A stretch of DNA of 37,626 nucleotides from a virus, in IMG/VR virus record IMGVR_UViG_3300047551_000892, positions 1-37,626 of that record; one strand, written 5' to 3'. The translations under genes were made by a program, and so were the position numbers. The notes under the pieces were generated by a model that saw only the letters and a list, made by a program, of their open reading frames with translations, was not told the DNA's origin and ran no database searches. This document shows positions 31,224 to 34,220 of this stretch, piece by piece (position 1 is the first letter of the stretch; each line of letters starts with the position of its first letter).

Positions 31224-31538
31224 ATGAGCGGTAAATCACCAACACAACGATCACTACAAAAGCTCAGATCTGAAGGCTATCTCTGCCAAATCGTCGAGCG
31301 CTGGAACCCACATGCAAGGATCAGGCAGGACCTATTCGGCATAGGTGACATACTGGCTATAAAGGCCGGTGAGACGCTACTGGTACAGACTACGAGTCGA
31401 GGTAATGTTGCTGCGCGAGTGACTAAGATCCAAGAGTCGGAGCATCTGCCTACGATCCTGGCCGCAGGCTGGAAGATCACCGTTCACGGATGGGGAAAGC
31501 TAAAGGCAGGATGGACTTGCAAGATTGTGGATTTCTAA
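31224..31538 (+). CDS. PD-(D/E)XK-like nuclease/resolvase-type protein
   Basis: The 104-residue protein begins MSGKSPTQRSLQKLRSEGYL, a helix-turn lead common to small Holliday-junction-resolvase-like or VRR-NUC-like phage nucleases. It has RIRQDLFGIGDILAIKAG (Asp-x-GD block, about 35-52), then TLLVQTTSRGNVAARVTKIQ (Gln-x-T-S strand, about 54-73). These match the spacing of a PD-(D/E)XK core in which an acidic residue of GD and the downstream Q/K strand bind metal. A DNA-processing role fits the location beside replication genes. It is the first gene of the rightward early region. Confidence 0.7.
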   Translation: MSGKSPTQRSLQKLRSEGYLCQIVERWNPHARIRQDLFGIGDILAIKAGETLLVQTTSRGNVAARVTKIQESEHLPTILAAGWKITVHGWGKLKAGWTCKIVDF

Positions 31539-31549
31539 TACAATAAAAG

Positions 31550-31709
31550 GGTCGGTGTGGCAACCGGCAGTGAACGAAGAAACCCCAGATTATTTAGGTG
31601 GGGCTTGTGTGGTCACAATGTCTTTCTTCGTTCAGACTGCGTGATTGCCCAACGCCAAAGGGCCTTGCCCCTCCTAAGTGTTCTGGGGTTTTTCTTTTGG
31701 TAGCCGACC
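31550..31709 (+). ncRNA. structured, possibly bistable RNA region
   Basis: Two alternative folds share bases. Fold A: an 11-bp perfect stem GAACGAAGAAA/TTTCTTCGTTC (31572-31582, 31623-31633) encloses two hairpins, CCCCA/TGGGG (31583-31587, 31599-31603) and TTGTG/CACAA (31605-31609, 31614-31618), making a three-way junction. Fold B: nested pairs GGTCGG/CCGACC (31550, 31704), AAACCCCAGA/TCTGGGGTTT (31580, 31682), TTAGG/CCTAA (31594, 31673) and GGGGC/GCCCC (31600, 31667). A T-rich run at 31689-31698 follows. Fold B looks terminator-like and fold A would prevent it. It may be an attenuator, riboregulator or antitermination site before the replication genes. Family unknown. Confidence 0.6.
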
Positions 31710-31881
31710 GTACTCCGAGCGTTATCAAGATCCTGCATGGGATGCGCGGAAGAAAACACCGGCTGGCGAAACACCCCGTTTCATGCCGATCCAGACTGTC
31801 AGTGAGGTACTGGACAAAGCCTCTTGTACATGGGTGGGACAAGCAAGAGGTGGAGAGAATCGCTGGCTTAGGCTGTACTAG
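31678..31881 (+). CDS. uncertain small ORF downstream of structured RNA
   Basis: A 67-codon frame opens at GTG 31678. The later part, SRPYSERYQDPAWDARKKTP, then FMPIQTVSEVLDKASCTWVG and GGENRWLRLY, reads like a genuine small protein. The GTG has no Shine-Dalgarno sequence and lies inside the 3' half of the structured RNA region. Other frames on both strands are also open here, so openness alone is weak evidence. An internal ATG at 31782 would give only 33 residues. The stretch from 31882 to 31963 holds only a leader to the next gene. Confidence 0.35.
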   Translation: MFWGFSFGSRPYSERYQDPAWDARKKTPAGETPRFMPIQTVSEVLDKASCTWVGQARGGENRWLRLY

Positions 31882-31963
31882 GCAGGGAACATCCAGAAGC
31901 GACCCCTGCTGGGTAAGGTGAGTGTTACCACCCTTGGGGAAGTTATGTCTAAAGGAAACAGAA

Positions 31964-32782
31964 ATGAACCCATTCTTAATCACTGAGCCAACCTGTATTA
32001 GCTTTAGCGGAGGTAGAACTTCTGCTTATATGCTTTGGAGAGTCTTAGAAGCTAACAACGGATTGCCAGATAAGGCGATCGTTTGTTTTGCAAATACAGG
32101 CAAAGAAGAAGAAGCAACGCTTAGGTTTATTCAAGATTGCTCAGAACATTGGAACGTAGATATTCACTGGCTAGAGTACATCTCAGAAAGTCCAATGTTC
32201 AAGAGGGTTGATTTCAAATCGGCAGCAAAACAAGGTGAACCTTACGAAGCCTTGATCAGAAAGCGTCAATACCTTCCTAATGCAGTCACTAGGTTTTGCA
32301 CTACAGAACTCAAGATCAGAACAATTCACAAATACTTAAAGTCGCTCGGATGGGATCACAACGAGACCTCAGACTGGGTTGGAATTAGGGCAGACGAGAT
32401 GAGAAGGGCGGCAAAGATTGACCGCTCCAGAACACCGCTTGTGAGTGCTAACGTAAGCATTCACGACATTGACAGGTTCTGGAAAGCCCAACCTTTCAAC
32501 CTTGAACTTCCAACCTACAACGGCAAAACGCTTGCTGGCAACTGCGACCTTTGCTTTCTTAAGCCAGCCAATCAGGTATTCACGCTTATAAAAGAAAAGC
32601 CAGAACGTGCAGTATGGTGGGTCAAGATGGAGGCATTGGCATTGGCATTGGCATCCAAGCCAAGCGGCGCAGTGTTTCGATCAGATAGACCGTCTTACGC
32701 CCAGATGCTTAAGTTCAGCCAGCAGCAGACAGATATGTTCGATCCTACGGAAGAAGCAATCGCTTGCTTTTGTGGCGACTAG
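31964..32782 (+). CDS. PAPS-reductase-like adenine nucleotide alpha-hydrolase protein
   Basis: The protein is 272 residues from ATG 31964, preceded by AAAGGAAACAG. The P-loop-type PP motif SFSGGRTSAYML is at about 12-23. Other family blocks are FANTGKEEEATLRFI, RFCTTELKIRTIHKYLKSLG and WVGIRADEMRRAAKIDRSRT. Cysteines at FCTTELK, NCDLCFLKP and the final CFCGD could bind an Fe-S cluster. Phage members of the PAPS reductase family are common; roles proposed include sulfur assimilation and DNA or RNA modification, none proven here. Near residue 223 a hexamer repeat has expanded the Ala-Leu run (EALALALASKPS). Confidence 0.85.
   Translation: MNPFLITEPTCISFSGGRTSAYMLWRVLEANNGLPDKAIVCFANTGKEEEATLRFIQDCSEHWNVDIHWLEYISESPMFKRVDFKSAAKQGEPYEALIRKRQYLPNAVTRFCTTELKIRTIHKYLKSLGWDHNETSDWVGIRADEMRRAAKIDRSRTPLVSANVSIHDIDRFWKAQPFNLELPTYNGKTLAGNCDLCFLKPANQVFTLIKEKPERAVWWVKMEALALALASKPSGAVFRSDRPSYAQMLKFSQQQTDMFDPTEEAIACFCGD
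32632..32655 (+). repeat. tandem GGCATT hexamer repeat in coding sequence
   Basis: Three exact GGCATT copies (32632-32649) and a fourth GGCATC (32650-32655) lie inside the PAPS-reductase-like gene and encode Ala-Leu-Ala-Leu-Ala-Leu-Ala. The repeat is in frame, so gain or loss of a unit changes length by two residues without frameshift. It looks like slippage expansion in a surface helix. Confidence 0.85.
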
Positions 32783-33387: not shown

Positions 33388-33789
33388 ATGAAAGAACATC
33401 ACGAACTTGTAAGACAGCTTGCAAAACCTGGGGAAGAGATCATCGACGATCTGACTCCGACGCAAGCGTTTGCCCTTCACATGGCAATAGGCGTATCTGG
33501 TGAGGCTGGTGAACTGTTAGACGCAATTAAAAAGTTTGCGATCTACCAAAAGCCTTTAGACCTGGAGAACGTTGTTGAGGAACTGGGCGACATTGAATTC
33601 TATTTGCAAGGCATTCGGCAAGCATTCTGCATAGACCGCGAATACGTTCTGCAACAGAACATAGAAAAGCTGAGAAAACGTTACGGCGAGAAGTATACGA
33701 ATGCGGCAGCGCAACGCAGAGCAGATAAATGCCCTCCGTGTAATAACGTCTGCGACCAAGGCAGACTATGCCCAGCGAGGAAGTCATGA
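33388..33789 (+). CDS. MazG-like nucleotide pyrophosphohydrolase
   Basis: The protein is 133 residues from ATG 33388, preceded by GAGGTG. The core matches the all-alpha NTP pyrophosphohydrolase (MazG) superfamily: HMAIGVSGEAGELLDAIKKF (E-x-GE, about 31-50), then VVEELGDIEFYLQGIRQAF (EELGD, about 60-78). These acidic residues bind metal. Such enzymes hydrolyse nucleoside triphosphates, adjusting (p)ppGpp or nucleotide pools during infection. The C-terminus is Cys-rich (CPPCNNVCDQGRLCPARKS), an unusual possible zinc site. The stop overlaps the next start (ATGA). Confidence 0.85.
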   Translation: MKEHHELVRQLAKPGEEIIDDLTPTQAFALHMAIGVSGEAGELLDAIKKFAIYQKPLDLENVVEELGDIEFYLQGIRQAFCIDREYVLQQNIEKLRKRYGEKYTNAAAQRRADKCPPCNNVCDQGRLCPARKS

Positions 33790-34220
33790 GCAGAGAAGCT
33801 ATGAAGCAGGCGCTGGAAGCGTTGGAATTGTTGGCTAAATACGAAAACCCTTCGACAAAGATACAAGTCCGCAAACCTAAAGACGGTGGCCCGATAGTGA
33901 CTATGTACCCGCACAAAGTGGCAACAGAAGCAGCGGCATTGTTGCGCGATAGGTTGGCGCAGCCGGAGCAGGAGCCGGTGGCGTGGGCAAATAGCCTAGA
34001 TTTTGATGATGACGATCAAGAAATTATCTCAGCTAAAGACAAGGGCAAATTAGGAACTAGCAATTGCGACATAGCGCTTTACATCGCGCCGCCAAAGAAA
34101 TGGGTTGGGCTGACGGATGGGGAACACGACAGCATAAAACGCAATTATCACGATATGACGTGGACCCTTGAAATGTTTGCCAGAGCCATTGAACAAGCCT
34201 TGAAGGAGAAAAACACATGA
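33786..34220 (+). CDS. hypothetical phage protein with Trp-x-Gly-Leu-Thr motif
   Basis: The protein is 144 residues from ATG 33786, with GAGGAAG upstream. The N-terminal helix REAMKQALEALELLAKYENP is of the type seen in many phage early proteins. The C-terminal block KKWVGLTDGEHDSIKRNYHD, then EMFARAIEQALKEKN resembles a short conserved phage tail motif (GLTDEE...A..IE.KLKEKN). The middle is acidic (LDFDDDDQEI). Function is unknown. Confidence 0.6.
   Translation: MSREAMKQALEALELLAKYENPSTKIQVRKPKDGGPIVTMYPHKVATEAAALLRDRLAQPEQEPVAWANSLDFDDDDQEIISAKDKGKLGTSNCDIALYIAPPKKWVGLTDGEHDSIKRNYHDMTWTLEMFARAIEQALKEKNT

Follow-up and report, generated by a model that had tools for sequence, protein, structure and literature searches.

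In the window, i.e. the whole 37.6-kb stretch of viral DNA that was analysed (37,626 nt), positions 31551–31698 read as an apparent transcription unit with a promoter, a small hairpin (P1), a terminator hairpin (P2), and a U-run. We propose that it encodes a phage structured RNA acting as a conditional intrinsic terminator, which would yield either a short RNA or a read-through RNA, and give this reading about an even chance. The promoter-like site at a fixed distance, the helices, a pseudoknot, the U-run, and a second structured module downstream are supported by sequence comparisons with relatives. The RNA looks new, in that it appears to belong to an undescribed class, although its kind, a phage structured RNA with a terminator, is already known. 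At least about a hundred distinct copies of the class were found, and the class, as represented by the window and ten related loci scanned, matches nothing in Rfam; it sits where early phage expression may be decided.

Genomic context of the element

The large terminase of the window is closest, among the GenBank phages searched, to that of Methylophilaceae phage P19250A (67% identity). To the left of the element lie minus-strand recombination genes, i.e. those of an exonuclease, an SSB, and an ERF protein, and on the right it is followed by genes for a PAPS-reductase-like protein, a replication-initiation-like protein, and MazG. The PAPS-reductase-like gene (31964–32782, plus strand; Pfam PF01507, E 2.8e-5; PHROG 424, E 4.3e-47) likely starts, as judged by eye, with the ATG at 31964, while the mechanical ORF begins with the GTG at 31922. 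No integrase was found among the 43 window ORFs scanned (40 against PHROGs and 9 against Pfam, some against both). Two further observations concern the surroundings. The small protein encoded at 31224–31538 has viral relatives in 200 of 205 candidate stretches and no Pfam or PHROG match; from a motif recognised by eye, we presume a resemblance to Holliday-junction-type nucleases. At the other end of the window, ParB-like nuclease and DNA methyltransferase domains are encoded at 16–1272, just before the terminase genes.

Repeats and predicted fold

The preliminary description of this DNA had listed two inverted repeats, an outer stem, and a T-rich run, and all of them were found where it had placed them. 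The repeats are 31571–31582/31623–31634 (12 nt, 100% match) and 31580–31604/31667–31691 (25 nt, 84% match), and the outer stem, as read from the sequence, is GGTCGG/CCGACC (31550–31555/31704–31709). The segment 31540–31715 folds with −75.1 kcal/mol (z −5.4, no equal among 200 shuffles), and the predicted transcript 31551–31697 is similarly exceptional (z −5.2, again 0 of 200). The reverse strand of 31540–31715 also folds well (z −4.3), as is expected from the inverted repeats.

The absence of a matching RNA family, also part of that description, was borne out: Rfam 15 gave no covariance-model match at the gathering score over the whole window and nothing up to E 10 over 31480–32000, and an Rfam scan of ten related loci (types A and B, see below) matched no family. 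GenBank phages contained no DNA relative of 31440–32000 (blastn) or of 1–25000 (megablast). A full-text literature search, mainly of open-access articles, gave no description of this RNA among the matches listed. Coding for a protein in a conserved frame had been named as a counter-explanation and was rejected; elements of the window's kind are 154–159 nt long and have frame-breaking indels, and in the window the two ORFs overlapping the element had no Pfam match.

Related elements

The proteins flanking the element were used to fetch 160 loci, namely the best 80 of 244 and the best 80 of 200. Two pattern scans for the window's kind, type A, yielded 22 stretches each, partly from the same contigs; four stretches of the first scan were judged to be chance matches (L167, L168, L171, and L172) and two were incomplete (L181 and L184). 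Type B is a sister group that appears to share the plan of type A and is larger in number (at least 120 stretches in its pattern scan). The type C scan gave 18 stretches, 10 of them distinct. Each locus has one strong match, with weaker mirror-image matches on the opposite strand.

P1, P2, the U-run, and the promoter spacing agree between types A and B. The covariance model R1, which was built from type B, matches type C (E 2e-8 to 3e-7) and also the divergent copies L056, L060, L068, L073, L074/L076, and L078 (E 3e-20 to 0.002). R1 had no match at the element in the window or in any type A locus that was searched. It is by architecture, position, and promoter spacing, and not by R1, that type A appears to be tied to type B.

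A 7–13 bp helix connecting the 5′ region with the interior of the terminator hairpin is present in 96 of the 101 distinct type B elements; at least two of these helices look mis-picked (L241 and L295). The five elements without a 7-bp helix were omitted (L213, L224, L249, L272, and L286); L249 and L286 look like chance pattern matches. The self score of the helix was 20.1 (all 101 elements), compared with 13.7 (sd 2.9) for non-self combinations. Ten of the 96 elements lack the GTTG anchor and were left out of the promoter count and of the alignment. The alignment contains 52 of 53 representatives at <93% similarity, L295 being omitted for a shifted start. Pairing is found in 93% of its cells, and both partners have changed in 22 of 35 pairs (270 cells); with 0.464, the covariation score exceeds those of slid partners (0.067–0.163) and of shuffles (0.184). 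Because only elements with GTTG were selected, this motif is invariant by construction, and so are the columns TTACTCATGC and GCAG(C/T)AGTAA, which the type B pattern fixes.

One type B copy is present in a GenBank phage from Manatee Spring, MW202484.1 (L318). There, the element and the second module (L318:3980–4280) are annotated as hypothetical coding sequences (33533–33892 and 33894–34157), and the annotated products, mostly hypothetical, include no integrase. Methylophilaceae phage P19250A had no such element in the two gaps inspected, and R1, a model that does not match type A, had no match in 14.75 of its 38.7 kb. Vibrio phage 2.096.O was discarded as having a terminator-like match only. 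The Rfam families Betaproteobacteria_toxic_sRNA and anti-hemB were likewise discarded, since all matches (L204, L260, and L242) were below gathering; those in L204 and L260 lie upstream of the element. Separately, the phage contig L204, which also carries a type B element, contains an Rfam Hammerhead_II match above gathering (L204:1104–1163, 38.2 bits).

A hypervariable pseudoknot helix

The 12-nt repeat (31571–31582 with 31623–31634, plus strand) would form the helix PK2, an H-type pseudoknot in which a 5′ strand pairs with the loop at the apex of the terminator hairpin. Fifteen distinct type A elements, the window included, have eight different helix sequences, and 7–12 bp are paired in all 15. 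The self score is 22.3, in contrast to 11.3 for non-self combinations; just 3 of these 176 score as high as the weakest self combination. When seven pairs of type A elements were compared, the PK2 segments differed at 5–13 of 30–34 positions and the remainder at 3–11 of 126–130. The window and L096, for example, have 12 differences at 31 positions of the PK2 segments and 3 at 129 positions elsewhere, and L175 and L176 have 11 at 32 and 11 at 128, respectively. In the nested, pseudoknot-free fold of the short RNA the PK2 arms are almost wholly unpaired, which fits what the pseudoknot needs. The arms are replaced in pairs and much of the remainder is near-fixed, which points either to a demand that the arms pair, whatever their sequence, i.e. 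free drift under a pairing rule, the more modest reading, or to selection for new specificity. We identified no type B counterpart of PK2.

A second pseudoknot, PK1, may connect 31559–31563 (GGCAA, the P1 loop and its edge) with 31645–31649 (TTGCC), as read from the sequence. In the 15 type A elements it is invariant except for one position and hence does not covary, and the nested fold gives 31645–31649 other partners. Its assignment in type A is by analogy with type B, in which the corresponding helix has two-sided changes in seven of eight pairs (helix table of the alignment).

Promoter, terminator, and predicted transcript ends

A sigma70-like promoter, TTGCAA – 16 nt – TACAAT, with 9 of 12 consensus bases is present at 31517–31544 (plus strand). 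Seven such sites were found in the promoter scan, versus 9.5 expected in shuffles, so that the site alone proves nothing and it is its position that counts. In type A, the −10 box ends 6–7 nt before the RNA in 12 of 13 rows (10 distinct upstream stretches), and in type B the best −10-like box ends 6–7 nt before GTTG in 76 of 81 distinct upstream stretches. Scores of at least 9/12 were reached by 40 of these 81, compared with 0.95% of 2000 control stretches. From the fixed spacing together with the T-run, the RNA should start at the first P1 base, i.e. at about 31551 in the window, and end in the U-run. The predicted short RNA would have a length of about 148 nt in the window and 88–107 nt in type B (median 100, 86 elements).

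P1 (31551–31568, plus strand) is a predicted hairpin with the stem GTCGGT/ACCGGC and a 6-nt loop, which begins at the predicted transcript start. In the 52 type B sequences, which were selected to carry GTTG as the 5′ strand of P1, 99.5% of its cells are paired, with one-sided changes only.

P2 (31580–31604 with 31667–31691, plus strand), identified by fold and repeat, is the predicted terminator hairpin with a 3 × 3 internal loop and a long apical domain; the "inverted copies of one 27-base element" of the preliminary description correspond to this stem. In the 15 type A elements, 100% of the cells of P2 and the outer stem are paired, with hardly any variation. Two-sided changes in P2 occur at two pairs, both contributed by L185, and one slid control also had two; the covariation score of these near-invariant stems is 0.088, versus 0.010–0.043 for slid partners. 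The covariation check suggested at the outset thus had two outcomes: the short stem (PK2) covaries strongly, whereas the long stem is nearly invariant in type A.

The stem is followed by the U-run of the predicted intrinsic terminator, TTTTTCTTTT (31689–31698, plus strand), in which the short RNA is predicted to end. In type B, at least five T within 8 nt after the stem were found in 96 of 96 elements, and at least six in 86 of 96, compared with 3.2% of 3000 controls. The fold, the stem, and the U-run support the earlier view of a structured RNA that ends in a terminator.

The outer stem, P0, has its 3′ strand beyond the U-run (31703–31709, plus strand, pairing with 31550–31556). All 15 type A elements can form it, and one-sided changes preserve the pairing (U-G/U-A/C-G and G-C/G-U). 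P0 is expected to form only in the read-through RNA and to compete with P1. In type B it is weak: helices of at least 6 bp were found in 47% of 74 elements, while the control proportions were 35% for non-self and 19% for shuffled flanks; none of the seven elements with one kind of second module had such a helix.

A second structured module downstream of the terminator

Covariation analysis defines a second structured RNA module, designated alpha type, at 31710–31949 (plus strand), immediately behind P0. Eleven diverse copies have two-sided changes in 23 of the 32 predicted pairs, and the covariation score is 0.740, versus 0.047–0.162 for slid partners and 0.249 for shuffles, the structure having been predicted from the same alignment. 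Of the 78 profile matches to the alpha module, which represent 60 distinct sequences, 77 are preceded by a module-1 element; it was recognised by profile in 69 and by eye in 8 (seven of type C and L049), and L066 is ambiguous. This association is biased because many of these loci were fetched via module 1. The spacers that were inspected leave too little room for a clear promoter belonging to module 2, which hence needs read-through or transcription from a promoter further upstream; transcription from upstream could indeed supply it. The attenuator logic of the preliminary description gains support here, as the terminator is followed by conserved structured RNA and by genes. In L204, a promoter-like TTGACA was seen by eye between the second module and the next gene; therefore, the unit need not be the leader of that gene.

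Several minor features of this region were noted. In L008, L152, L187, L191, and L213, module 1 is followed by other, unrelated-looking stretches that by eye are apparently non-coding. By eye, the alpha type has candidate nested pseudoknots, with CCAG/CUGG flanking CAGNGA/UCNCUG. In L202 and L291, the terminator is separated from the alpha module by an additional segment whose ends are inverted (GGGCATC…GATGCCC in L202), and in L318 a second terminator-like T-run follows module 2, near L318:4270.

A proposed conditional terminator and its alternatives

The proposed mechanism is as follows. Transcription would begin at about 31551 at the unit's own promoter, and P1 would fold. The terminator hairpin would then fold, one or two of its apical strands would pair with 5′ strands to form the pseudoknots, and the U-run would free the short RNA of about 148 nt. 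Whenever termination fails, the 3′ strand of P0 would be made and would rival P1 for the shared 5′ strand, and the read-through RNA would run on into module 2 and the genes on the replication side. The decision might be tipped by a phage or host protein or, as in IsrK, by the short RNA acting in trans. The transcript start and end, conditional termination, the P0/P1 switch, and a specificity that derives from the hypervariable helix are what we infer. The pseudoknot covariation, the constant promoter distance, the T-run, the covarying second module, the pairing of P0 in 15 of 15 type A elements, the single strong match per locus, and the structured RNA in 77 of 78 slots (see below) favour a conditional terminator. 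The weakness of P0 in type B, the near-absence of type A covariation in P2, the promoter-like sequence after the second module in L204, the possible transcription of module 2 from upstream, and the bias in its association with module 1 count against it.

The closest parallel is IsrK of the prophage Gifsy-1, for which a share of the transcripts passes the terminator into a longer RNA (PMC4825925). As described there, IsrK is a phage sRNA with its own promoter, a Rho-independent terminator, and read-through; the passages of that article available to us mention no hypervariable covarying pseudoknot for IsrK, and the next element is orf45-anrP (PMC4825925), in the window a structured RNA. For an IsrK-like pair of short and long RNAs, the window offers a promoter-like site and a terminator recognisable by sequence, and read-through is suggested by the conserved second module only. 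The Rfam library presumably includes the IsrK family, and the window differs in having no Rfam match. The C4 and P4 CI antisense RNAs are further phage RNAs, whose pairing arms cause termination or a translational block. The window differs from them in that its variable arm has no clear second target and that no integrase is found among the 43 ORFs scanned.

The main rival is that the element produces an independent trans-acting small RNA or a protein-binding decoy, its terminator being unconditional and read-through incidental; we regard this as possible, but doubtful. The own promoter-like site, the discrete length, the T-run, and the single strong match per locus would suit such an RNA, as would the promoter-like sequence that parts the locus from the next gene in L204. 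Against it stands the conserved structured module directly downstream. Moreover, no conserved unpaired seed was seen, and matches of at least 8 nt to the variable 5′ strand, direct or complementary, are scattered. As raw counts, the window has 15 further places, of which one (36074) is downstream of the element; the sequenced pieces examined of L005, L096, and L104 have one each. A second target site for the variable arm was therefore rejected, as only these scattered matches and no clear site emerged.

It is unlikely that the element is a put-like RNA, which would bind RNA polymerase so that downstream terminators are ignored. Put of phage HK022 has a length of about 70 nt and two stem-loops, and binds the zinc-binding domain of β′ (PMC9378689). 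Like the window's element it is a highly structured phage RNA, and putL directly follows an early promoter (PMC9378689), just as the element opens a predicted phage transcript; in L318, a further terminator-like hairpin was seen downstream by eye. In contrast to the put form of about 70 nt with two stem-loops, for which the portion of the article at hand describes no terminator of its own (PMC9378689), the element has a different fold with a U-run directly after the structure, and its hypervariable arms are not what would be expected of a polymerase contact.

The preliminary description had favoured a bistable riboswitch or attenuator, in which the 12-bp stem and the 25-nt stem are mutually exclusive. 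That choice between the two main stems now appears highly improbable. The stems do share 31580–31582, and the long stem is excluded by the minor hairpins that had been drawn inside the 12-bp stem as parts of a three-way junction; the 12-bp stem itself does not exclude it. The two stems share only these 3 nt and cross, and can therefore form together as a pseudoknot. In several relatives even this overlap is missing, PK2 being complete before the long stem starts, and both stems are kept in 15 of 15 type A elements; the minimum-energy fold has one stem and leaves the arms of the other nearly free. Nothing hinted at a ligand, and the neighbouring genes vary among relatives. Mutually exclusive pairing is more plausible between P1 (31551–31556/31563–31568) and the outer stem (31551–31556/31703–31708), since both use the same 5′ strand.

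Least probable of all is a DNA-level element (an operator, a mobile or recombination site, or an origin) with merely RNA-like inverted repeats: different elements are exchanged at the locus, inverted repeats lie at its borders, and both strands fold well, but G-U pairs kept on one strand, the constant promoter spacing, and the U-run fit an RNA, and the type B pattern retrieved from 84,980 bacterial and archaeal genomes only 11 stretches, all of which were judged by eye to be chance matches lacking the architecture.

Exchange with int-alpA-like RNAs

The occupancy of the slot was surveyed in the best 80 relatives fetched by the upstream gene, of which two were too short and 78 were scored by motif. 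A structured RNA was found in 77 of the 78. It was int-alpA-like in 52 (30 distinct) and of types A, B, or C in 25, i.e. type B in 13 (8 distinct), type C in 7 (4), and type A in 5 (3); the remaining slot was classified as other. Rfam int-alpA (RF02996) matched above gathering in 5 of 14 relative loci scanned, each time in the slot (L088:4339–4407, L095:4162–4231, L098:4336–4404, L114:2254–2322, and L115:4339–4407). Rfam thereby confirmed every one of the 52 motif-assigned loci that it was given, namely these five. The window does not match this 71-position model, and its element is unlike int-alpA in sequence and fold; what they have in common is the slot. The int-alpA loop also tends to match downstream sequence.

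A more speculative extension of the conditional terminator is that PK2 serves as an identity tag. The short RNA would pair only with nascent RNA of its own type and drive termination or read-through. The result would be an incompatibility mediated by RNA, either through copy-sensing or by excluding like phages, and the int-alpA-like RNA would be an exchangeable cassette of like function. We hold this to be improbable; the phages concerned have no visible lysogeny genes. The class may open a view of phage–phage competition or supply new RNA control parts.

In the int-alpA-like RNAs, a GTGAnnn further downstream is a potential partner of the loop, and a second one lies close to the start codon that follows. 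The mean helix of the loop was 6.6 for self and 5.1 for non-self combinations, and at the second place 6.5 and 5.4, respectively (10 pairs, 2 of them mis-cut), which is a modest signal that the loop may match downstream sequence. We take this layout to be C4-like, and it might help to explain the int-alpA family.
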